From positions 613,946 to 677,945 of the forward strand of contig NC_008618.1 of the NCBI RefSeq assembly GCF_000010425.1: a stretch of 64,000 bases of DNA, written 5' to 3'. The position numbers and the translations under genes were made by a program. Within the stretch, counting starts at the first letter, position 1, and each line of letters begins with the position of its first letter. The notes below the pieces were generated by a model. The model did not search any database and had not been told where the DNA came from. It saw nothing but the letters and a program-made list of their open reading frames with translations. Of this stretch, positions 3,359 to 44,862 are shown one piece after another. This DNA is from Bifidobacterium adolescentis ATCC 15703 (lineage in GTDB: Bacteria; Actinomycetota; Actinomycetes; Actinomycetales; Bifidobacteriaceae).

Positions 3359-4786
3359 TTAGAACAGTCCCGGCTCGTTAAGCTGAGAATGCTTGCGGCT
3401 GTACGTGAAATACACGACCAGTCCAAGCGCGAACCACACGGCGAAACGCACCCACGTCTCCCAATTCAAACCGAAGATCAGAATCAGGCAGAAGATGATG
3501 GCGCAGATTGGCGTGAACGGCACGCCCGGCGCACGGAAGCCACGATGCGCGTCCGGCTGGGTCTTGCGCATCCACAGGATGCCGGCCGACACGATGATGA
3601 ACGCGGACAGCGTACCGATGTTCACCAGCTCGAACAGCACGTTGATGTTGATGAAACCGCCGGCGATGGCCGTCAGAATGCCGAAGAACCACGTGCCCTT
3701 GAACGGTGTGCGGTACTTCGGATGCACTTCGCCGAAGAACTTCGGGAACAGTCCGTCGCGGCTCATCGCATAGCAGATGCGGGACTGGCCGTACAGCTGC
3801 ACCAGCATGACGGTGGTCATGCCGATCAACGCGCCGAGGTTCACGATGAACGCCAGCCAGTTGAGGCCGGTCTCGAGAATCACGCCCGCCACCGGAGCGT
3901 CGATGAACTTCGCGAACTCCTTGTACGGCACCACGCCGGTCATGATGAGCGTCATGATGATGTACAGCACGGTGGACACGGCCAGCGAGATCAGGATGCC
4001 GCGCGGCAGCGTCTTGTTCGGATTGATGGTCTCCTCGGCGGAGGAGGAGACGGCGTCGAAGCCGATGAAGCTGAAGAACACAATCGACGCGGCCGGCACG
4101 ATGCCGTACGGCTGCGTCGAACCCGGCTGGAACGTGTAGATGCCATACGGGGAGAACGGTTTCCAGTTGGCGGGATTGATGTACCAGACGGTGCACACGA
4201 TGAACAGCACGATGATGGCCAGCTTGATCATCACCATGATGTCGTTGGTCTTCTTCGTCTGGTTGATGCCGATGGACAGCACCCACGTGATGATAAGCAC
4301 GATCACGAAGCCCGGCAGATTGAAATACGTGGTGACTCCCGGCGTGGTGCCGTACGCGGCGGTCAGTTCGACCGGCAGATGCAGGCCGAAGCCTTCCAAC
4401 AGCTTGTTGAAATAGCCCGACCAGCCGGCGGACACGGTCGCCGCCTGCAACGCGTATTCCAAAATCAAATCCCAACCGATCACGAAGGCGATCAACTCGC
4501 CGAACGCCAGATACGCGTACGAATAGGCGGAGCCGGAAACCGGTGCCATCGCGGCGAACTCCGCATAGCACAGGCCCGCAAAACCGCAGCAGACGGCGGC
4601 GAGCAGGAAGGACACGCACAATGCCGGTCCCGCGGTGAGCGCGCCCTTGCCGGTGAGCACGAAGATGCCGGTGCCGATGATGGCGCCGATGCCCAGCATG
4701 GTCAGGTCGAAGGTTTTCAGTGTTCGCTTCAGCGGAGTCGATTCGGAGACAAGTTGGTCCACCGACTTCTTGCGAAATAGATCCAT
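3359..4786 (-). CDS. APC-family amino-acid permease (CAT/YfnA-like)
   Basis: This is a cytoplasmic-membrane amino-acid permease of the APC superfamily, 475 aa with about 12 hydrophobic segments. The N-terminus KRTLKTFDLTMLGIGAIIGTGIF carries the GIG/GAIIGTGIF glycine-rich unwound helix that binds substrate, and AMAPVSGSAYSYAY is typical of the cationic amino-acid transporter branch. A conserved cytoplasmic SFIGFDAVSSSAEE segment follows mid-protein. Cationic amino acids are the default guess, but substrate cannot be read from sequence. It is transcribed divergently from alr across a 225-bp gap, in which no clear regulatory site was identified. Confidence 0.87.
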   Translation of the reverse strand: MDLFRKKSVDQLVSESTPLKRTLKTFDLTMLGIGAIIGTGIFVLTGKGALTAGPALCVSFLLAAVCCGFAGLCYAEFAAMAPVSGSAYSYAYLAFGELIAFVIGWDLILEYALQAATVSAGWSGYFNKLLEGFGLHLPVELTAAYGTTPGVTTYFNLPGFVIVLIITWVLSIGINQTKKTNDIMVMIKLAIIVLFIVCTVWYINPANWKPFSPYGIYTFQPGSTQPYGIVPAASIVFFSFIGFDAVSSSAEETINPNKTLPRGILISLAVSTVLYIIMTLIMTGVVPYKEFAKFIDAPVAGVILETGLNWLAFIVNLGALIGMTTVMLVQLYGQSRICYAMSRDGLFPKFFGEVHPKYRTPFKGTWFFGILTAIAGGFININVLFELVNIGTLSAFIIVSAGILWMRKTQPDAHRGFRAPGVPFTPICAIIFCLILIFGLNWETWVRFAVWFALGLVVYFTYSRKHSQLNEPGLF

Positions 4787-34132: not shown

Positions 34133-35395
34133 TCATGCGTTCAACGCCTTGAAACCGATGTCGTGACGGTAGAACATTCCCGTCGTGTCAAGCTTGTCGA
34201 TGATGCCGTAGACCTTGTCCTGCGCGGTTTTGATATCGGCCGCGGAGGTCTCCACGAAAAGCACGCGGCCGGAATTCGCCACCAGGCCATGCTCGCCACG
34301 CGTCACGCCGGCATAGTAGACGTGGGAATCGTCGTCGACCTTGATCTCAGGAATCGCGGCACCCTTGACCACATTGGTCGGATAGCCGTCGGAAGCGAGC
34401 ACCACGCCGAGAGTGGCATTGTCCTCATCCCAAGTGAATTCCGGGGTCTCATCGTTCAGAATGGCGTTGATGCCGGCACCGAGATCGGACGTGAGCTTCG
34501 GCAGCACCACTTCGGTCTCTGGATCGCCGAAACGCGCGTTGAATTCAATGACCTTCGGTCCGTCGGCGGTGGCGATGAGGCCGGCGTACAGAATGCCGGT
34601 GAACGGCGTGCCCTCGTCGGCCATGGCCTGAACGGTCGGCTTGACGATGGTTTCGATGGCGGTGTCGATCACATCCTGACCGATCTGCGGAACCGGGCTG
34701 TAAGCGCCCATGCCGCCGGTGTTCGGCCCCTTGTCGCCATCGTAGGCACGCTTATGATCCTGCGAAATCGGCATCGGCCAGAAATCGGTGCCGTTCACAA
34801 AGCTCATCAGAGAGAATTCCTGACCCTCAAGGAAATCCTCGATAACCACCTTCGCGCCGGCGTTGCCGAAGCGGTGGTCCACGAAAATGTCCTCCAAAGC
34901 GGCGATGGCGGTCTCCTCATCCATCGCCACGGTCACGCCCTTGCCTGCGGCCAGGCCATCGGCCTTGATGACGATCGGCGCGCCATGCTCGCGCACATAA
35001 GCGGTGGAACGCTCCAAATCGTCGAACGTCTGGTACTTCGCGGTCGGAATGTCGTGACGTTCCATAAGCTGCTTGGCGAAGTCCTTGGAACCCTCGATCT
35101 GCGCGGCGGCCTTGTTCGGGCCGAACGCCTTGATGCCGGCGGCCGCGAAATCGTCGACGATGCCTTCGATAAGCGGCACTTCCGGTCCGACGAACACCCA
35201 ATCGTAACCATTGTTCTTCACGAAATCGATGAGCGCCGCATGATTGGACGGGTTGAGCTGCGTGGTGCGGATGCCGTCAAGTTCCATGCCCGGATTGCCT
35301 GGAGCCACAGTGACCTCGCTGACGCTGTCGCCACGCATGAGCGCGTGGGCGATGGCGTGTTCACGCGCACCGGAACCAATGACCAGAACCTTCAT
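34133..35395 (-). CDS. purD: Phosphoribosylamine-glycine ligase PurD
   Basis: PurD joins phosphoribosylamine and glycine with ATP to give GAR. The 420-aa ATP-grasp protein starts MKVLVIGSGAREHAIA and contains GPEVPLIEGIVDDF, KADGLAAGKGV, EEFL-like DFLEGQEFSLMSFV, GMGAYSP and FNARFGDPE. CAGGAGGAAAT precedes the ATG at 35395. It follows purM in the same direction, but a hairpin of about 25 nt lies in the 90-bp gap, so expression may be partly uncoupled. Confidence 0.97.
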   Translation of the reverse strand: MKVLVIGSGAREHAIAHALMRGDSVSEVTVAPGNPGMELDGIRTTQLNPSNHAALIDFVKNNGYDWVFVGPEVPLIEGIVDDFAAAGIKAFGPNKAAAQIEGSKDFAKQLMERHDIPTAKYQTFDDLERSTAYVREHGAPIVIKADGLAAGKGVTVAMDEETAIAALEDIFVDHRFGNAGAKVVIEDFLEGQEFSLMSFVNGTDFWPMPISQDHKRAYDGDKGPNTGGMGAYSPVPQIGQDVIDTAIETIVKPTVQAMADEGTPFTGILYAGLIATADGPKVIEFNARFGDPETEVVLPKLTSDLGAGINAILNDETPEFTWDEDNATLGVVLASDGYPTNVVKGAAIPEIKVDDDSHVYYAGVTRGEHGLVANSGRVLFVETSAADIKTAQDKVYGIIDKLDTTGMFYRHDIGFKALNA

Positions 35396-35439
35396 ATTTC
35401 CTCCTGTTGTATCCCTTATGGGGAAGAGTGCCAATCTCA

Positions 35440-35476
35440 AGAAATAATATCGGGGGTGCCTGTTCGGCTACCCCCG
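35440..35476 (-). terminator. Intercistronic terminator or attenuator between purM and purD
   Basis: On the minus strand CGGGGGT pairs with ACCCCCG (35476-35470 with 35457-35451), with GCC/GGC inside. The tail is ATATTATTT. It could end most purF-purM transcripts before purD. Confidence 0.6.
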
Positions 35477-35485
35477 TATGTTCGT

Positions 35486-36520
35486 TTACTGCAGTTCGAC
35501 GTCCTCGCCGGTCTTCTTGACGATATTGCCCAGCACATAGCCGGCCTCGCCATTGGACTTCAGCAGTTCCATGGTCTTATCGGCATCTTCGGCGCTGACC
35601 GCCAGCACCATGCCGATACCCATGTTGAAGATGTTGAACATTTCCATATGGTCGATTTCGCCGGCCTTCTCCAGCACGTCGAAGATCGGCAGAACCGGCC
35701 AAGAGCCGAGGTTGATATGCGCCGCGAGACCATCGGGGATCATACGCGGGATGTTCTCGATGAAGCCACCGCCGGTGATGTGCGCGACGCCCTTGACCAC
35801 GCCGGCCTTGAACAGCGGGGACAGCGTCTTGACATAGATCTTGGTGGGGGTGAGCAGCACGTCGCCGAGCTTCTCACCGCCGAGCTCATCCAGCTGGGTG
35901 TCGACGGTGTATCCGGCCTGTTCGAACAGGGCCTTGCGCACCAGGGAGAAGCCATTGGAATGCACGCCGGTGGAGGGAAGGCCGATCAGCACGTCGCCTT
36001 CGACAATCGAGGAACCATCGACTATGGCGGACTTCTCGGCCACGCCCACGGCGAAACCGGCCAAATCGTACTCGTCCTCGTCGTACATGCCCGGCATCTC
36101 GGCGGTCTCGCCGCCGATCAGGCCGCAATCGGCCTGCACGCAGCCGTCGGCCACACCGGATACGACCTGCTCAAGCAGGGCAGGATCGTTCTTGCCGCAG
36201 GCGATGTAATCCAGGAAGAACAGCGGTTCCGCGCCCTGGGCCGCGATATCGTTGACGCACATGGCCACGCAGTCGATGCCGATGGTGCTGTGTTTGCCCG
36301 CCATCTTGGCGACGACCAGCTTGGTGCCCACGCCGTCGGTGCCGGAAATCAGCACCGGCTCCTTGTAACCCAGGGAGGCGAGATCGAACAGGCCGCCGAA
36401 TCCGCCGATGCCGCCGACCACGCCCGGACGATTGGTGCGCGCCACATGCGACTTGATGCGCTTGACGACTTCGTAACCGGCTTCGACGCTTACGCCGGCT
36501 TCTTCATATGCTTTTGGCAT
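35486..36520 (-). CDS. purM: Phosphoribosylformylglycinamidine cyclo-ligase PurM
   Basis: PurM closes the imidazole ring, turning FGAM into AIR with ATP. The 344-aa product starts [17 protein letters not shown] and shows [54 protein letters not shown] and [20 protein letters not shown] supports the ATG at 36520. The gene starts 19 bp after the purF stop, so purF and purM form an operon. Confidence 0.97.
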
Positions 36521-36539
36521 ATCAAACCTTTCTTGGGTC

Positions 36540-38054
36540 TCAGTGTTCTTCTTGGGGTGAAGTGGTGGTGTACTCGTTGCCTTCGTACTTGCTCTTGTAC
36601 AGGGCGAATTCGGGTAGTCGGACACGATCCTCCGGAGTGAGCGACTTCAGGAAGTCGGCTTCGTAATCGTCCAACGCGGTCGGGTAATCGCCATTGAAGT
36701 AGGCCACGCACAGGCCGCCATACGGTGCGTCCGCACCCAGACCGATGGATTCGACCAAACCGTCGAGGGAAAGGAACGCCAGGGAATCGGCGCCGATGTA
36801 TTCGCGGATCTCCTCAACGGACTTCTTCGCGGCGATGAGCTCTTTGGTGGTGGAGATATCGATGCCGTAGAAGCACGGGTATTTCAGCGGCGGCGAGCTG
36901 ATACGCATATGCACTTCGGCCGCGCCGGCCTCCTTGAGCAGCTGCACGATGCGCTTGGACGTGGTGCCACGCACGATGGAATCGTCGATGACGATCACAC
37001 GCTTGCCCTTGACCACGCCACGAACGGCGGACAGCTTCATGCGCACGCCCTGCTCGCGCAGTTCCTGCGTCGGCTGGATGAAGGTTCGCGCCACATACTG
37101 GTTCTTGATCAGACCCATTTCGTTGGGCAGGCCGGCCTCTTCCGCATAGCCGGAGGCTGCGGACAATGAGGAATTCGGCACGCCGATCACCATATCGGCG
37201 TCGACCGGCGACTCCTGCGCCAGACGTGCGCCCATACGCTTGCGGGCGGAATGCACGTTCACGCCGTAGATATCGGAATCCGGGCGGGCGAAGTAGATGA
37301 ATTCCATCGAGCAGATGGCCAGCTGCGTCTGATTCGTGTACTGCACGATCTTATAGCCGTGGTCGTCCACCACCACGATCTCACCCGGACGGATGTTACG
37401 TACCAATTCAGCGCCGACGACGTCGAGCGCGCAGGTTTCGGAAGCGAGCACATACGCGCCGTTCTTCATCTTGCCAAGGGAGAGCGGACGGAAACCGTTC
37501 GGATCGAGTGCGCCGATCATGGCGTTCTCGGTCATAATCAGATAGGCGAAACCGCCATGCACGATGTTCAGCGCTTCCTTGAGCTTGTCCATAAACGTGC
37601 GTTGCGTGGAGCGGCGGATGAGGTGCATCAGCACTTCAGTGTCGGAATTGGAATGGAAGATCGCACCCTCATCTTCCAGCTTGCGGCGCAGGGACAGGCA
37701 ATTCGTGAGATTGCCGTTATGACACAGCGCCATATCGCCGTCATGGAAACGGAAGATGAACGGCTGGATGTTGTCGGTGCCGCCGGAGCCGGCAGTGGCA
37801 TAGCGCACATGGCCGATCGCCCTGTCGCCTTTGAGTCGTTTGATTTCACGCTCGTCGCTGAATACCTGGGTCAGCAGACCCGTTCCGCGATGACCGATGA
37901 GATGACCGTTATCGTTGGAGACAATGCCGGCACCCTCCTGACCACGATGCTGCAGCGCGTGCAGACCGAAGTAAGTGAGTCGGGCGGCGTCCGAGTGGCC
38001 CCAAACGCCGAAAATACCGCATTCCTCGTGGATGTCTTCGAGTTCAGCTGACAA
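36540..38054 (-). CDS. purF: Amidophosphoribosyltransferase PurF
   Basis: PurF is the first committed purine enzyme and makes phosphoribosylamine from PRPP and glutamine. The 504-aa product begins with an 11-residue propeptide before CGIFGVWGH. Cys12 is the glutaminase nucleophile and should be exposed by cleavage. [13 protein letters not shown] follows, and the PRPP loop is [15 protein letters not shown]. The start is TTG at 38054, with GGAAGGAG 7 nt upstream and no better candidate in frame. It is divergent from the SOS-boxed polymerase gene. Confidence 0.96.
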
Positions 38055-38177
38055 GCCAAAGCTCCTTCCAAAACCATGGAGACAAGGGGTTCGCTACCGT
38101 CCAACAGTATCAATGGGCGGCTACAAGAGTCGGGTTTTGTCCAGTTCTCAGACGGTATATGGAACCGGACATGCAAT

Positions 38178-38191
38178 CGAACAGCCGTTCG
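38178..38191 (+). promoter_or_regulatory. LexA (SOS) operator
   Basis: CGAAC-AGCC-GTTCG is a perfect 5-bp palindrome with a 4-bp centre. It matches the CGAAC-N4-GTTCG operator of Gram-positive/Actinobacterial LexA. It overlaps the -35 position of the promoter at 38202-38207 and lies 96 bp before the Y-family polymerase start. Confidence 0.8.
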
Positions 38192-38201
38192 AAAAAGCTG
38201 T

Positions 38202-38207
38202 TATGAT
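38202..38207 (+). promoter_or_regulatory. -10 hexamer (TATGAT) of the polymerase gene
   Basis: TATGAT is placed so that a 17-bp spacer puts the -35 (GAACAG) inside the SOS box. LexA binding would therefore block RNA polymerase. Confidence 0.55.
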
Positions 38208-38286
38208 GGAAGACGTTGAAAACGCGAATCACGGTCGTCGGGGTGCGGGAAGTCCCCCGTATGAGCCATTGCATGGAAGGAGCATC

Positions 38287-39921
38287 ATGGCCGGACGGAT
38301 ATACGTGGCAATCGACCTCAAATCCTTCTATGCGTCCTCGGAATGCGTGGAACATGGATTCCCTCCGCTATCCACACACTTGGTGGTGGCGGACCAGGAG
38401 AGGACCGACAAAACCATCTGCCTTGCGATCTCGCCGTCGTTGAAGGCATACGGTCTGCCCGGACGCGCCCGCCTATTCGAAGTCAAAGCGAAACTGAAGG
38501 AAATCAACGCGGTCCGTCGCGCCGCGGCTCCAGGCGGTGTGCTGACGGGGAAATCGTATGATGCGAAGGCGCTCGCGGCCAATCCGAATCTGGCCGCTGA
38601 CGTGTTCATCGCCAAACCGCGCATGTCTCATTACTTGGCGATGAGTGCGAAAATCTACGGTATTTATCTGAAATACGTTTCGGCTGAGGATATCCACGTC
38701 TATTCGGTGGACGAGGTGTTCATGGACGTCACCGGCTATCTGCGCGCCTATGGCAAAGGGGTGGAGGAGATGACCCGTGACATCATCCGTGATATCCACA
38801 CCCAGACCGGCATCACCGCCACCGCGGGCATCGGCACGAACATGTATCTGGCCAAAGTGGCTATGGATATCGTGGCCAAACACATCCAGGCGGGGGAGGA
38901 CGGCATTCGCATCGCCCGGCTTGACGAGATGTCGTACCGGAAATTGTTGTGGAATCACCGGCCGCTTACCGATTTCTGGCGTGTGGGGCGTGGGTATGCA
39001 AGGAAGCTCGAAGCGCACGGACTGGCGACCATGGGGGATATCGCGCGCTGCTCCATCGGGCGTGCCGACGAATACTACAACGAAGATCTACTGTACAAGA
39101 TGTTCGGTGTGAACGCCGAACTGCTCATCGACCATGCGTGGGGTTGGGAACCGTGCACCATCGCGGACATCAAAGCGTACAAGCCGGCGGGGCACAGCTT
39201 GAGTTCCGGACAAGTGCTGACGGGACCGGTGGGTTTTGATGCCGCCCGGCTTATCGTGCGTGAAATGGCGGATACGCTGTCTCTGGATTTGGTGGCGAAG
39301 GGCGTGAAAGCCGGCAGAGTGGGATTGATGGTCGGCTACGACACGGCAAGTCTTGATCCGAAACGGCTTGGCAAGGATGTTTCCGCTGATTTGAAGGCGA
39401 TTGCCGAACATGCCGCGGCAACATACGACGGCCCTGTTTCGATCGACAGGTATGGCCGCCGCGTACCCAAGCCGGCCACCGGGTCGATCGCATTGCCGGA
39501 GCCGACGTCGGCTACGTCGCGTATTTGCGACGCGGTCGATAAGCTTTTCCTTTCGATTGTCGACAGGCGTTTGCTGGTCCGTCGGGTGAATGTGGTCGCC
39601 GCCGATGTACTGACCGACGAGCAACTTGAGGAACGGCGGCAGGCGGCCGCGTCCGAATATACGCAGCCTGATTTGTTCGCCACGATGGAAGCGCCGGTGG
39701 ATTCCGCTTCCGCTGATGCGGCCGAATGCGAGGCTATGCGTTCCGCCGCCGATGGTGGTTCCAAGGATTCGCCGCAAGGGGACGCCGAACTGCATATGCA
39801 GCAAACGCTTCTGGACATCAAACGCAAATTCGGCAGAAATTCCATCATCAAGGCCATGGATATGTTCGATGACGCCACAGGCCAGCAGCGCAACAAGCAG
39901 ATAGGAGGTCATGCGGCATGA
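38287..39921 (+). CDS. Y-family (UmuC-like) error-prone DNA polymerase
   Basis: This translesion polymerase of 544 aa is expected to act in SOS mutagenesis. The catalytic acidic residues are D10 (YVAIDLKSFYAS) and D142-E143 (YSVDEVFMDV). GIGTNMYLAKVAMD, RVGRGYARKLEAHGL (helix-hairpin-helix) and SLSSGQVL follow, and a beta-clamp motif QPDLF sits at residues 460-464. This is the UmuC-like subgroup common in Gram-positives, not the DinB type. GGAAGGAGC precedes the ATG at 38287. An upstream SOS box indicates LexA control. Its stop overlaps the start of the next small gene (ATGA). No umuD-like gene is adjacent. Confidence 0.93.
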   Translation: MAGRIYVAIDLKSFYASSECVEHGFPPLSTHLVVADQERTDKTICLAISPSLKAYGLPGRARLFEVKAKLKEINAVRRAAAPGGVLTGKSYDAKALAANPNLAADVFIAKPRMSHYLAMSAKIYGIYLKYVSAEDIHVYSVDEVFMDVTGYLRAYGKGVEEMTRDIIRDIHTQTGITATAGIGTNMYLAKVAMDIVAKHIQAGEDGIRIARLDEMSYRKLLWNHRPLTDFWRVGRGYARKLEAHGLATMGDIARCSIGRADEYYNEDLLYKMFGVNAELLIDHAWGWEPCTIADIKAYKPAGHSLSSGQVLTGPVGFDAARLIVREMADTLSLDLVAKGVKAGRVGLMVGYDTASLDPKRLGKDVSADLKAIAEHAAATYDGPVSIDRYGRRVPKPATGSIALPEPTSATSRICDAVDKLFLSIVDRRLLVRRVNVVAADVLTDEQLEERRQAAASEYTQPDLFATMEAPVDSASADAAECEAMRSAADGGSKDSPQGDAELHMQQTLLDIKRKFGRNSIIKAMDMFDDATGQQRNKQIGGHAA

Positions 39922-40145
39922 GCCTTACGGAAACCCATCGCTACGACGACATCATCGATCTGCCGCATCACCAATCGCAGACGCATGCCCATATGAGCAT
40001 GCATAACCGTGCCGCCCAATTCATGCCTTTCGCCGCCCTGACCGGTTACGACGACATCATCAGACAAACCGCGCAATCCAGCGATGATGCGGTGGAACGC
40101 GCCAACAGGCCCGTCGATCTCGCCGAGGGTTACCTTTCCGCCTGA
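39918..40145 (+). CDS. Small conserved partner of the Y-family polymerase
   Basis: This 75-aa protein overlaps the polymerase stop by 4 bp (ATGA), so its translation is coupled and it shares the SOS promoter. The central part, HAHMSMHNRAAQFMPFAALTGY, resembles small proteins encoded beside UmuC-like polymerases in Firmicutes. Their function is not established; a polymerase accessory or regulator is a guess. It is His-rich near the N-terminus and has no membrane segment. Confidence 0.75.
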   Translation: MSLTETHRYDDIIDLPHHQSQTHAHMSMHNRAAQFMPFAALTGYDDIIRQTAQSSDDAVERANRPVDLAEGYLSA

Positions 40146-40184
40146 AGCGGCTGCTATGACGAATGTCGCGGATTGCTGTATATG

Positions 40185-40226
40185 AAAGGGTGGGTTCGGA
40201 ATCATGAGATTTCGAACCCACCCTTG
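40185..40226. terminator. Bidirectional terminator between the polymerase operon and purL
   Basis: A 17-bp stem with one G-U pair (40186-40202 with 40209-40225) and a short loop has A residues to the left and TT to the right. It separates the convergent genes. Confidence 0.85.
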
Positions 40227-40256
40227 ATTATGTGAGCGTGAAAAGAGTCTTGATGC

Positions 40257-43200
40257 TCAGGCGGTGAAGTACTCCACGCCGGCTGCGAACAGCGGCTGAT
40301 CCTTCTCGCCGGGCACGTTCACGAACGTGCCGTTGCTGTAGCGCTCGGAGTGGCCCATCTTGCCGAACACGCGGCCGTCCGGGCTGGTGATGCCTTCGAT
40401 GGCCAGCAGCGAACCGTTCGGGTTCACGTCCAGATCCATGCCCGGCACACCGTTCTCGTCCACGTACTGCGTGGCGATCTGGCCATTGGCCTTGAGCTGG
40501 GCGAGCACGTCGTCGGAAGCCACGAAACGGCCTTCGCCATGGGAGATGGCGATGGTGTGCATGTCGCCCACCTCGGTCTTCGCAAGCCACGGGGAGAGGT
40601 TCGATGCCACGCGGGTGCGCACCAGACGGCTCTGGTGGCGGCCGATGGTGTTGAACGTCAGCGTCGGGCATTCGGCGGTCATCGGCACGATGTCGCCGTA
40701 CGGCACCAGGCCAAGCTTGATAAGCGCCTGGAAACCGTTGCAGATGCCGAGCATCAGGCCATCACGGTTGTTCAGCAGGTCGCGCACGGCCTCGGTCACG
40801 GCCGGAGCGCGGAAGAACGCGGTGATGAACTTGGCGGAGCCGTCCGGTTCGTCGCCGCCGGAGAAGCCGCCAGGAATCATGATGATCTGGCTCTTCTTGA
40901 TCTCCTCGACCAAAGCGGCGGTGGACTCGGCCACGGCAGCCGGAGTGAGGTTGTTCACGATAAGCGTGCTCACGTCGGCGCCCGCGCGTTCGAAGGCGGC
41001 TGCGGAATCGTATTCACAATTGTTGCCTGGGAACACAGGGATGATCACGTGCGGCTTGGCCACACCGGTGCCGGTGTACACGGTCTTCTTCGGAGCGTCG
41101 AAGGACACGGTTTCAACGGTCTTGCCCTTCTCGTCGCCATTGGAACGGTACGGGAACACGGATTCGATGCCGCCCTCCCACGCGTCCTGCAGTTCGGCCA
41201 GATCCAGCGTCTCACCGGCTGCCGCGAACTGGTAGGCCTCGGTGGTCTCGCCGACCTCACTGACCTCAACCAGGTTGGATACGGCCGGAACCTTCGCGTT
41301 GTCGGCAAGTTCGATGATGAAGGAACCATAGGCCGGGGCGAACAGGTCGTCCACGCTGATGCCATCGGCCAGCTTCACGCCGATCTGGTTGCCGACCGTC
41401 ATCTTGAAGATAGCCTCGGCGGTGGCACCGTAGCCAGGCGTGGACACGGCCAGCGCATCGCCGAAATCGGTGAGCTCCTCGACCGCGGAGAACACCTCCA
41501 GCAGCGCGTCCTTATCCGGCGTGAGACCATCGGCGTTATAGCGCGGGGCGATGCGGACCACACGGTGACCGGCACCCTTGAACTCCGGGGATGTGGCGCG
41601 CTTCATATTGCCCACGGCTACAGCGAAGGAGATCAGGGTCGGCGGAACGTCAAGCTGTTCGAAGGTGCCGGACATGGAATCCTTGCCGCCGATTGCGCCA
41701 GCGCCCAGATCCACCTGGGCCATCAAAGCACCCAGCACGGCGGCCATCGGCTTGCCCCAGCGTTCCGGCTCGTCGCGCAGCTTCTCGAAGTACTCCTGGA
41801 AGCTCAGGTATGCCTTCTCATGCTCAAAACCGGCAGCGACCAGCTTCGAGAGCGACTCGACCACGGACAGGTAGGCGCCCGTGAACTGGTTCTGCTCCAT
41901 GATGTACGGGTTGAAGCCCCAAGCCATCGCGGAGGCGGTGGTGGTCTCGCCAAACACCGGCAGCTTGGCCACCATGGCCATGTTCGGGGTCAGCTGCTTA
42001 CGCCCGCCGAACGGCATGAGCACGGTGCCTGCGCCGATGGTGGAGTCGAAGCGTTCGGAAAGTCCCTTGTTGGAGGCCACGTTCAGATCGGTGAGCATGG
42101 TGTGCATGCGTTCGGCGAGCGTGCCGGTCTTCCACGGGGTGGCGTAGCCGTGCTGCGCCTCGACATGCACCACCTGATGCTTCGGAGCGCCATTGGAGGC
42201 GAGGAACTCGCGGGACAGATCCACGATCGTGTCGCCGTTCCACACCATCGTCATGCGCGGCTCTTCGGTCACGGTCGCGATGACCTCGGCCTCGAGGTTC
42301 TCCTCCTTGGCGTAGCCCAGGAACTCGTCCACATCTTCGGCGGCCACGTCCACGGCCATGCGTTCCTGCGATTCGGAGATCGCCAGTTCGGTGCCGTCAA
42401 GACCCTCGTACTTCTTGGACACCTTGTTGAGGTCCACATACAGGCCGTCGGCAAGCTCGCCGACCGCCACGGACACGCCGCCCGCGCCGAAATCGTTGCA
42501 ACGCTTGATCAGACGGCACGCGTCACCACGGCGGAACAGACGCTGCAGCTTGCGCTCGACCGGCGCGTTGCCTTTCTGCACTTCGGCACCGTCAAGCTCC
42601 AGCGATTCGACGTTATGCGCCTTGGAAGCGCCGGTGGCGCCACCGATGCCGTCACGACCGGTACGGCCGCCGAGCAGGATGACCTTGTCTCCCGGAGCCG
42701 GGGTCTCGCGGCGCACATGATCGGCCGGAGTCGCGGCCACGACCGCGCCGACCTCCATGCGCTTGGCCACATAGCCCGGATGGTAGATCTCATCCACCTG
42801 GCCGGTGGCCAGACCGATCTGGTTGCCGTAGGAGGAGTAGCCAGCCGCGGCGGTGGTGACGAGCTTACGCTGGGGGAGCTTGCCCTCAAGCGTTTCGGAA
42901 ACCGGCACGGTCGGATCGGCGGCACCGGTCACACGCATCGCCTGATACACGTAGGAACGGCCCGACAGGGGGTCGCGGATGCAGCCACCGATGCAGGTGG
43001 CCGCGCCACCGAACGGTTCGATCTCGGTCGGGTGGTTGTGCGTCTCGTTCTTGAACAGGAACAGCCAATCCTCGTCGTGGCCGTTCACATCCACCTTCAC
43101 CTTGACGGTGCAGGCGTTGATTTCCTCGGATTCGTCGAGGTTCTTCAGAATGCCGTTCTTCTTGAGCCACTTCGCGCCGATCGTGCCCATATCCATCAGG

Positions 43201-43991
43201 CATACCGGCTTGGCGTCGCGGCCCAGCTCGTGACGCATCTCAAGATACTTGTCGAACGCGGCCTTGACGGTGGCATCGTCGATCGAAACCTCGTCGAGCT
43301 GCGTGCCGAACGTGGTGTGACGGCAATGGTCGGACCAATACGTGTCGATCACCTTGATCTCGGTGATCGTCGGGTCGCGCTGCTCCTCGGTGAAATGCTC
43401 GCGGCAGAACTGCAGGTCGGCCAGATCCATGGCGAGACCACGGTCTTCGATGAACTGCTCAAGCTCGGCGTCGCTCATAGAACGGAAGCCGTTGATGACC
43501 TCCACCTTGCCTGGCACCGGCACCTGGGCCTTCAGCGTGGTCTTGACATCCAGAGAGGCTTCACGGGCTTCCACCGGATTGATCACGTAATGCTTGATGG
43601 CCTCGACGTCGGCTTCGGAAAGCTCGCCTTCCAGCGCATACACCTTGGCGGAACGAACCGTCGGACGCTCGCCTTGGGAGATCAGCTGGATGCACTCGCT
43701 GGCGGAATCCGCGCGCTGGTCGAACTGGCCGGGCAGATACTCCACCGCGAACACGGTGTCGGAACCGAAATCAGGCAGGTCGGCGTAGACGTTGTCCACC
43801 TGCGGCTCGCTGAACACGGTCGGCGTGGCCTGGGCGAACAGCTCCTCGCTGATGCCTTCCACGTCGTACCGGTTGACGAGACGGACGTTCTTCAAAGCTC
43901 CGATGCCGAGAATGGTGTGCAACTCGTTGGCGAGCTGCTGGGCCGCGACGTCAAAGCCCGGCTTCTTTTCCACGTACACGCGAAAAACCAT
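40257..43991 (-). CDS. purL: Phosphoribosylformylglycinamidine synthase PurL (single-chain with glutaminase)
   Basis: PurL turns FGAR, glutamine and ATP into FGAM. The protein is 1244 aa and carries the PurS-like N-terminus, the two PurL ATP-binding halves and a C-terminal PurQ-type glutaminase in one chain. Landmarks are DTYWSDHCRHTTF, KNETHNHPTEIEPFGGAAT, GGRTGRDGIGGATGAS, GGKDSMSGTF, and the glutaminase Cys in LGICNGFQALI. ATG 43991 follows AAGGAG by 6 nt; a TTG two codons earlier is less likely. It lies downstream of purC, with a hairpin in the gap. Confidence 0.97.
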   Translation of the reverse strand: MVFRVYVEKKPGFDVAAQQLANELHTILGIGALKNVRLVNRYDVEGISEELFAQATPTVFSEPQVDNVYADLPDFGSDTVFAVEYLPGQFDQRADSASECIQLISQGERPTVRSAKVYALEGELSEADVEAIKHYVINPVEAREASLDVKTTLKAQVPVPGKVEVINGFRSMSDAELEQFIEDRGLAMDLADLQFCREHFTEEQRDPTITEIKVIDTYWSDHCRHTTFGTQLDEVSIDDATVKAAFDKYLEMRHELGRDAKPVCLMDMGTIGAKWLKKNGILKNLDESEEINACTVKVKVDVNGHDEDWLFLFKNETHNHPTEIEPFGGAATCIGGCIRDPLSGRSYVYQAMRVTGAADPTVPVSETLEGKLPQRKLVTTAAAGYSSYGNQIGLATGQVDEIYHPGYVAKRMEVGAVVAATPADHVRRETPAPGDKVILLGGRTGRDGIGGATGASKAHNVESLELDGAEVQKGNAPVERKLQRLFRRGDACRLIKRCNDFGAGGVSVAVGELADGLYVDLNKVSKKYEGLDGTELAISESQERMAVDVAAEDVDEFLGYAKEENLEAEVIATVTEEPRMTMVWNGDTIVDLSREFLASNGAPKHQVVHVEAQHGYATPWKTGTLAERMHTMLTDLNVASNKGLSERFDSTIGAGTVLMPFGGRKQLTPNMAMVAKLPVFGETTTASAMAWGFNPYIMEQNQFTGAYLSVVESLSKLVAAGFEHEKAYLSFQEYFEKLRDEPERWGKPMAAVLGALMAQVDLGAGAIGGKDSMSGTFEQLDVPPTLISFAVAVGNMKRATSPEFKGAGHRVVRIAPRYNADGLTPDKDALLEVFSAVEELTDFGDALAVSTPGYGATAEAIFKMTVGNQIGVKLADGISVDDLFAPAYGSFIIELADNAKVPAVSNLVEVSEVGETTEAYQFAAAGETLDLAELQDAWEGGIESVFPYRSNGDEKGKTVETVSFDAPKKTVYTGTGVAKPHVIIPVFPGNNCEYDSAAAFERAGADVSTLIVNNLTPAAVAESTAALVEEIKKSQIIMIPGGFSGGDEPDGSAKFITAFFRAPAVTEAVRDLLNNRDGLMLGICNGFQALIKLGLVPYGDIVPMTAECPTLTFNTIGRHQSRLVRTRVASNLSPWLAKTEVGDMHTIAISHGEGRFVASDDVLAQLKANGQIATQYVDENGVPGMDLDVNPNGSLLAIEGITSPDGRVFGKMGHSERYSNGTFVNVPGEKDQPLFAAGVEYFTA

Positions 43992-44064
43992 GGTCAACTC
44001 CTTGAAAAAGAGGGGTTATTGGATTTGGATTGACAAAAGAATGAAGGATTGCGATATAACAAGG

Positions 44065-44100
44065 AAGCCCGCATCCGGCTTTCGCTTCAGATGCGGGCTT
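44065..44100 (-). terminator. Intercistronic hairpin between purC and purL
   Basis: A perfect 11-bp stem (44065-44075 with 44090-44100) encloses 14 nt. On the minus strand it is followed by CCTTGTT. It may reduce read-through from purC into purL. Confidence 0.6.
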
Positions 44101-44109
44101 GCAAACGCA

Positions 44110-44862
44110 TTACTCTGCGACTTCGATGCCCTCGGACTTGGCGAGCTCGGCCAAGCGGCTTTCGATCTCCTCGTATGCCGGGATGATGTCGCCCAGGTCG
44201 CGGCGGAACAGGTCCTTATCAAGATGCTCCACCTTGCCGGAGTGGTCGCGCTGATCCCACAGGCGGCAGGAATCCGGGGTGATCTCGTCGGCGAGCAGCA
44301 GCGTGCCGTCGGAGGTGCGGCCCATCTCGATCTTGAAATCGACCAGCTTGACGTCGATCTTGGCGAAGATTTCGATCAGGGCTTCGTTGATGCGACGGGC
44401 GAGCGGCGCGATTTCGGCCAGATCCTCGCGGGTGCACACATCGAGCGCCACCAGATCGTCGTCGTTCACGAACGGGTCGTGCAGTTCGTCGTTCTTCAGG
44501 AAGTACTCCAGCACCGGTTCCTTGAGCTCGATGCCCTCTTCGACGCCCAGGCGGGAGCAGAAGTGGCCGGCCGCGGTGTTACGCAGCACGATCTCGAGCG
44601 GGAACATCGTGACCTTCTTGACCAGCTGGGAGGTCTCGCCCACGCGTGCCACCAGGTGGCTGTCGATGCCGCGCTTCTTGAGCAGATCGAAGATCAGCGT
44701 GGTGATGAGGTTGTTCAGCCTGCCCTTGCCGGCGAAGTCTTCCTTCTTTTCGCCGTCACCTGCGGTAGCGGAGTTCTTGTATTCGACCCAGAGGACCTCC
44801 GGATCGTCAGTTGCGTACAGTTGCTTGGCCTTGCCCTCGTAGAGCTTTTCCAACTTCTCCAT
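44110..44862 (-). CDS. purC: Phosphoribosylaminoimidazole-succinocarboxamide synthase PurC
   Basis: PurC makes SAICAR from CAIR, aspartate and ATP. The 250-aa product begins [20 protein letters not shown] and has [16 protein letters not shown], a TFLT-equivalent region [23 protein letters not shown] and [14 protein letters not shown], and ends in the family-typical [12 protein letters not shown] segment. AGGAAAGGCGAG precedes the ATG. The 135-bp gap to purT contains GTTAAC within a near-palindrome at 44909-44924, which could be an operator. Confidence 0.97.

Follow-up and report, generated by a model that had tools for sequence, protein, structure and literature searches.

The closest described relatives of the operon reported here are the Gram-positive translesion systems built from a UvrX-like/YqjW polymerase, a YolD/YqjX partner and RecA. 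PMC6511836 (2019) describes RecA-like motifs and conserved tails for such polymerases and proposes YolD-type proteins as UmuD counterparts. A UvrX-like group is named there by the PolY of Bifidobacterium bifidum, and the polymerase type is therefore already on record. PMC12926913 (2026) distinguishes three types of subunit: full YqjX/YolD, "just the N-terminal region", and the arm joined to another domain. AlphaFold models of all three types are presented in that paper, with the arm inside the polymerase. For the UvrX-like/YqjW members of B. subtilis and S. aureus, SOS control is reported.

The operon resembles these systems (PMC6511836, PMC12926913) in its clamp motif, RecA-like motif, C-terminal tail and adjoining YolD-type gene. 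It differs from them in that the SH3-like domain of YolD is missing, although PMC12926913 lists an N-terminal-only subunit as its second variant. Escherichia coli Pol V (UmuD'2C-RecA) is alike in SOS-type control, in a RecA motif, and in a small subunit that is linked to the polymerase by gene order and is modelled with its arm within the polymerase (PMC12926913). Unlike Pol V, the operon has neither UmuD nor a self-cleaving subunit, and the folded part of the partner is unrelated. Lastly, the ImuA-ImuB-DnaE2 system of other Actinomycetota is likewise a damage-inducible mutagenesis module and belongs to the same phylum (PMC6511836). Here the difference is that the operon's genome has one Pol III alpha match and that the polymerase keeps its putative catalytic motifs.

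The operon lies in the window, the whole stretch of 64,000 nucleotides from Bifidobacterium adolescentis ATCC 15703 that was analysed, and its features are collected in Table 1. It is surrounded (34133-44862) by minus-strand neighbours which we take to be purine-synthesis-like genes (purD, purM, purF, purL, purC). The sequence features observed initially are confirmed. The first coordinate of the region as initially annotated, 38178, is that of the operator and not of a gene start.

Table 1. Positions of the operon's features in the window
Feature	Positions	Strand	Basis
SOS (LexA-type) operator CGAACAGCCGTTCG inside TCGAAC-N4-GTTCGA	38178..38191	+	at most one mismatch at 58 of 63 orthologous loci
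Extended -10 TGTTATGAT; -35 position within operator	38199..38207	+	sequence; similar element at 36 of 58 loci
Y-family (UvrX-like) translesion DNA polymerase, 544 aa	38287..39921	+	Pfam IMS 6.9e-25, IMS_C 2.1e-8
QPDLF, beta-clamp-type motif, residues 460-464	39664..39678	+	sequence
RecA-N-terminus-like motif, residues 503-525	39793..39861	+	best-scoring segment against the genome's own RecA N-terminus
Conserved polymerase C-terminal tail IGGHAA	39901..39918	+	sequence
75-aa small protein, YolD-type N-terminal arm without SH3-like domain	39918..40145	+	sequence comparison
Arm proper, residues 8-48, RYDDIIDLPHH...RAAQFMPFAALTGYDDII	39939..40061	+	invariant residues
Strong hairpin between operon and convergent gene, possible transcription end	40180..40233		-33.7 kcal/mol, z -8.0

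The first gene runs from an ATG at 38287 to a stop codon at 39919-39921. Both of its Pfam matches exceed the curated cut-off, which places the product in the Y family by its domains. Its best PHROG is DNA polymerase (2.3e-54), and the PHROG search gave a further weak match (E = 0.013). The protein contains AIDLKSF and YSVDEVF, which we take to be the catalytic motifs of a Y-family polymerase, with the catalytic carboxylates in place. In addition, a Foldseek search with a fused relative of 631 aa, described below, returned Y-family polymerases as the closest solved structures.

Three further elements characterise the YqjW/UvrX(-like) polymerases, namely a clamp motif, a RecA-N-terminus-like motif and a conserved C-terminal tail, and all three are found here. 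The beta-clamp motif QPDLF is present, as had been claimed, and a Q-x-x-[LIMV]-F stretch is present after residue 380 in 93 of the 93 polymerases examined. The score of the RecA-like motif was reached by 21 of 2000 shuffles, which is of modest significance for this protein alone. In 81 of the 93 polymerases the best RecA-like segment sits at a distance of exactly 19 residues from the cut end, and in the other 12 it is found elsewhere. The tail IGGHAA ends 45 of the 93 rows, which were cut behind the GGH motif, where found, before the end sextets were counted; the other 11 end sextets listed also carry GGH.

Relatives of the polymerase in three plasmid records (L038:2177-3685, L039:2478-3977 and L041:2433-3953) are misnamed, as "DNA methylase" (Vescimonas, Selenomonas) or "LytTR family transcriptional regulator" (Limosilactobacillus). 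L038 and L041, the two that were scanned, have strong Pfam IMS matches despite these annotations, and the polymerase family is therefore easily missed by name.

A perfect CGAAC-N4-GTTCG operator overlapping the -35 of a TATGAT promoter had been described at the start of the operon, and both parts of this description hold. The TATGAT lies at 38202-38207 as part of the extended -10, and a spacing of 17 nt puts the -35 at 38179-38184, within the box. As a rule, extended -10 promoters do not need a good -35. The automatic promoter scan found no sigma-70 promoter on the operon strand, and its single match is on the opposite strand. At the other end of the operon, the hairpin has no clear T-run, and the terminator scan gave no flag there.

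The operator is the sole zero-mismatch copy of the box in the window. At up to two mismatches the window holds 80 copies against 53.8 expected, so that loose copies mean little, and because two-mismatch palindromes are common, the conservation of the box across orthologous loci was examined. The region searched began 300 nt before the polymerase start and reached 10 nt into the gene, with starts guessed by script. Upstream of the 63 orthologous loci of the Bifidobacteriaceae, the best box has no mismatch in 46, one in 12, two in 4 and three in 1. Each of eight control palindromes was perfect at 0 of 63 loci and was found with one mismatch at 3 of 63 at most, which rules out a chance operator. 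At 17 loci the box lies within 25 nt of the guessed polymerase start or overlaps it; therefore, some of the starts may be misplaced, or some leaders may be very short. At 36 of the 58 loci whose box has at most one mismatch, an extended -10 (TGnTAnnnT) follows 5-8 nt downstream of the box, versus 5 of 1451 control windows. A conserved LexA-type box at the promoter, the mark of a LexA regulon, is thus present by sequence.

Outside the family the picture differs. Among the best 80 of 446 named loci, the 21 from Bifidobacterium hold all 16 perfect boxes, and upstream of the 59 non-bifidobacterial loci of this set no perfect box was found, four having one mismatch and the others two to four. Conservation therefore supports SOS control via this box for the Bifidobacteriaceae only. 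Either such control is a bifidobacterial trait, or the LexA box of the non-bifidobacterial species differs.

The genome (2,089,645 bases) contains 23 perfect boxes in all, versus 12 for a reversed control pattern. One perfect box (1272885-1272898) is about 290 nt before the start of the RecA domain match, that is, upstream of recA. Three boxes with one mismatch are located ahead of the putative lexA ORF or at its start. Together with the conservation of box and promoter, these boxes support the SOS-type control that had been suggested for the operon. The absence of a umuD-like gene is also borne out: the genome has a single S24 peptidase match, which is read from its sequence as a putative LexA, and a UmuD-type partner was rejected, as the S24-type self-cleaving subunit of Pol V was not found in the genome. 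The ImuA-ImuB-DnaE2 system, which is defined by a second DnaE and a catalytically dead ImuB, was likewise rejected. The search for a second DnaE gave one Pol III alpha match in the genome, and the operon's polymerase has intact putative catalytic motifs. One other IMS protein is present in the genome and is read as a putative DinB.

The small gene is joined to the polymerase gene as had been noted, the stop codon of the first overlapping the start of the second in an ATGA with four bases shared. Coupling of the two genes is supported by a 4-nt overlap in 35 of 58 unfused pairs. The 75-aa product has no match in Pfam or NCBIfam, and none in Pfam even at E ≤ 1. It lacks the SH3-like domain that lies under the Pfam YolD model (PF08863) and shares its N-terminal arm with full-length YolD-type proteins. 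Over the first 60 residues it has 68% identity to a bifidobacterial relative of 154 aa. That relative in turn shares 47% identity with a clostridial protein over 130 residues (BLAST), and the clostridial protein matches Pfam YolD at 4.6e-5, under the curated cut-off. PF08863 matches 6 of the 22 full-length relatives scanned (22 of 57 listed; best 1.9e-6) and 1 of the 7 bifidobacterial ones (E = 0.077). As the model is weak on the bifidobacterial full-length proteins, the link to YolD rests on this chain of homology and on a comparison between the profiles of arm-only and full-length proteins (E = 2.3e-38). Sequence comparison thus identifies the 75-aa protein as a YolD-type N-terminal arm from which the SH3-like domain is missing, and its reading as an unknown family is rejected. 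The view that no role is established for such small proteins is outdated, given the UmuD-counterpart proposal in PMC6511836 and the arm-only subunit in PMC12926913.

Residues Y9, D11, P16, M26, RAAQF (31-35), P37, F38, A40, L41 and G43 are invariant in this protein and in 11 other arm-only proteins. Measured against seven relatives, the dN/dS of the small gene is 0.10-0.23 (by Nei-Gojobori counting in a simple form; dS approaches saturation in several of the pairs), and the ORF therefore behaves as a real, constrained gene. Behind the arm (40073-40142 in the window), many of the arm-only proteins of L045-L094 have a shared end of their own, of the type D-x-DFGA, GY-x-x-A or GW[VI]PA, and two fusions end alike (DTDWGS, DCDFGA). 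This common end is possibly a second contact site.

The arm and the polymerase are linked in the Bifidobacteriaceae. The small protein was found in 63 of 151 genomes of the family and a strong polymerase match in 62 of 151 (weakest E 2.1e-161), one genome having two copies, which makes 63 loci. Weak polymerase matches only (best E 2e-12) occur in 70 of the 151, as a DinB-type paralogue would be expected to give, and the remaining 19 show no match. At 63 of 63 loci the arm is adjacent to the polymerase or fused with it. The partner is arm-only at 40 loci (60-80 aa) and full-length at 18 (131-182 aa), and at the remaining 5 the arm lies in the same open frame as the polymerase. In two genomes (G063 and G007) a TGA falls inside the matched stretch, and the proteins end there at 60 aa. 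In one draft member of the family (G024), 2500 nt were read of a contig of 3434 nt; they contain a YolD-type gene (L107:895-1308, minus strand), which adjoins a 112-aa ORF, and no polymerase.

Among the best 80 of 446 named loci, the fusion occurs in seven named species, B. hapali, B. amazonense, B. biavatii, B. miconis, B. simiiventris, B. moraviense and B. avesanii, five of which were taken to be the same as the five fused family loci. It occurs in none of the 59 non-bifidobacterial loci of that set. At three non-bifidobacterial loci (L146, L183 and L193) no arm was found in the stretch of DNA examined. The linkers of the fusions are 43-95 residues long, and S, P or G replaces the start Met of the arm. 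Independent translation of the arm inside the fusions was considered and rejected: start codons lie within 12 codons of it in three of the seven (B. hapali, B. amazonense and B. avesanii), none of them Shine-Dalgarno-like, and by the pattern used no such start is found within 70 codons of the arm. The sole Shine-Dalgarno-like start in the fusions is 74 codons upstream of the arm, in B. moraviense. In B. ramosum (L132) the contig stops within the linker with the frame still open, and this locus was left out of the fusion count.

As far as our searches reach, a single bacterial family with arm-only, full-length and fused partners side by side is new. The main texts of PMC12926913 and PMC6511836, in the parts available, make no mention of a polymerase-YolD-arm fusion, and none was found among the matches listed in the literature on YolD/YqjX or Bifidobacterium translesion polymerases.

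A tree of the polymerases was built from 93 rows (63 family loci, 6 further bifidobacterial and 24 other named ones) by a quick search with no bootstrap. On it, the fused label needs three changes, at least two of them forced by starred branches, which is compatible with two gains or with one gain and some losses. The arm-only label needs nine changes, at least four of them forced by starred branches, and the arm-only group that holds the window's polymerase has 37 rows (support 85, not starred). These changes bear on the idea that the 75-aa protein is a decaying YolD gene, its lost SH3-like domain marking loss of function. The missing part under Pfam's YolD model and the two matches cut short by an internal TGA would agree with decay. 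Against it stand the occurrence of the short form at so many loci, its narrow range of lengths, purifying selection and the several changes that it needs on the tree; on the strength of dN/dS and length range in particular, decay is disfavoured and we regard it as very improbable.

The arm profile matched 30 of 396 genomes of the phylum. One is that of the window, and the other 29 are spread over three further families; the window's class and order are not represented among the 29, at least 20 genomes of the class having been examined. This distribution, taken with the many gut Bacillota relatives among the named loci (best 80 of 446), suggests horizontal entry of the system into bifidobacteria.

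Relatives are also seen on mobile elements and in other phyla. Among 18 loci from a viral collection, the arm is preceded by a polymerase match in 15, and two others are truncated by a contig end; the remaining one (L219:3001-3156) has an arm/YolD-type gene and no polymerase in the stretch read, and a search with P0001 in viral_contigs found no relative. A conjugative plasmid of Campylobacter jejuni encodes a 55-aa arm-only relative (L040:5004-5171) and a 328-aa polymerase ORF (3556-4542) with no IMS_C match. The small protein has matches in 28 Campylobacter plasmid records, one of which was looked at. Arm-only partners in draft genomes labelled Bacteroidia or Bacteroidales (L168, L194 and L196) lie outside the Gram-positive groups.

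How the arm might engage the polymerase was addressed by structure prediction. The natural fusion of B. simiiventris (631 aa) was used as a stand-in for the complex. Its AlphaFold model has a mean pLDDT of 84.9, from an alignment of 71 rows that comprised 7 fusions, 54 of 71 unfused polymerases and 10 of 12 arm-only proteins. The pLDDT stays below 50 in the linker (504-562), reaches block means of 91-93 in the arm at 571-590, and falls to 73-89 over residues 591-620. Residues 571-586 have no secondary structure. Predicted alone, the window's arm protein has a mean pLDDT of 69.8, a pTM of 0.30 and no residue at or above 90, in a contrast that compares alignments of unlike depth (71 versus 12 rows). 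Docking on the polymerase is the best explanation of a confidently predicted coil past a disordered linker, and the model thus suggests that the arm docks there; the site would be that of the published models. A search of solved structures with the arm profile gave no match.

An arm lying in the polymerase, as predicted in PMC12926913 and by the pLDDT pattern of the fusion, could also act as a brake: it would occupy a cleft close to the active site and keep the polymerase inactive until displaced by RecA or the clamp, and coupled translation suits an inhibitor as well as a subunit. We find this improbable, since a fused arm cannot leave the chain and can only be displaced, and since its relative in Pol V, the UmuD' arm, is part of the active complex (PMC12926913).

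The operon is real, conserved and of SOS type, and the kind of system to which it belongs has already been predicted in print and is disputed. What is new is the fusions and the series of partner forms within one family. The operon is probably a LexA-repressed, damage-inducible translesion synthesis module in which the arm subunit tunes or activates the polymerase. Here, LexA on the box would block the extended -10 promoter, and cleavage of LexA driven by RecA would open it. The first gene would then yield an active Y-family polymerase, which the beta clamp may recruit via QPDLF and RecA may recruit via the piece that imitates its own N-terminus. The second gene would be translated in step through the ATGA overlap, giving a peptide-like subunit that consists of the YolD-type N-terminal arm only. 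This arm is predicted to insert into the polymerase and would tune or activate it, as modelled for the UmuD' arm in Pol V. The SH3-like domain of YolD would be dispensable in this lineage, the arm being built into the polymerase chain in some species. The initial annotation had proposed a two-gene mutasome that does not rely on UmuD. The second half of this proposal is supported by the absence of a UmuD-like gene; for the putative mutasome, "two-gene" is probably incomplete, the RecA-N-terminus-like motif making RecA the expected third part.

A bolder reading is that nothing beyond the arm is needed for a functional accessory subunit. Threading a peptide of some 45 residues into the polymerase would then suffice for a Pol V-like mutasome, and in the bifidobacterial fusions this peptide would have been tethered to the C-terminus of the polymerase by a disordered linker of 43-95 residues, perhaps on two occasions. 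Work on B. subtilis bears on both readings and is in conflict. UV mutagenesis drops 1.5-fold without yqjX (quoted in PMC6511836), whereas PMC13335488 reports no significant change in mutagenesis upon loss of YqjX, a full-length relative of the arm protein, gap filling by PolY2 alone, as a single chain, and no detectable PolY2-YqjX interaction (unpublished data in that paper). Because of these conflicting results, the mechanism of the tuned or activated polymerase is held with reasonable rather than full confidence, and the sufficiency of the arm is offered as a tentative idea that may well fail. The partner could be needed only for some lesions, a prophage YolD could stand in for it, or the arm could be a minor factor.

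The last of these possibilities would mean that the polymerase works alone or with RecA and the clamp only, the arm protein being a minor or conditional factor. It draws on the reports of B. subtilis PolY2 as a single chain (PMC13335488, PMC13220808) and on the lack of a significant YqjX effect (PMC13335488). It is unlikely to apply here, given the presence of the arm beside or in the polymerase at every bifidobacterial locus examined, its invariant residues, the low dN/dS of the small gene and the occurrence of fusions at two points in the tree.

It is disputed whether the UmuC-like polymerases of Gram-positive bacteria require a YolD-type partner: modelling says yes, and the B. subtilis work says perhaps not. 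With full partners, arm-only partners and fused arms, the bifidobacterial family is a natural domain-deletion series. The fusions turn the question of whether the arm matters into a one-protein question in commensal gut bacteria. If the arm is indeed sufficient, the fusion would be a mutasome that nature has packed into one chain, and what the arm does could be tested there without a partner protein.
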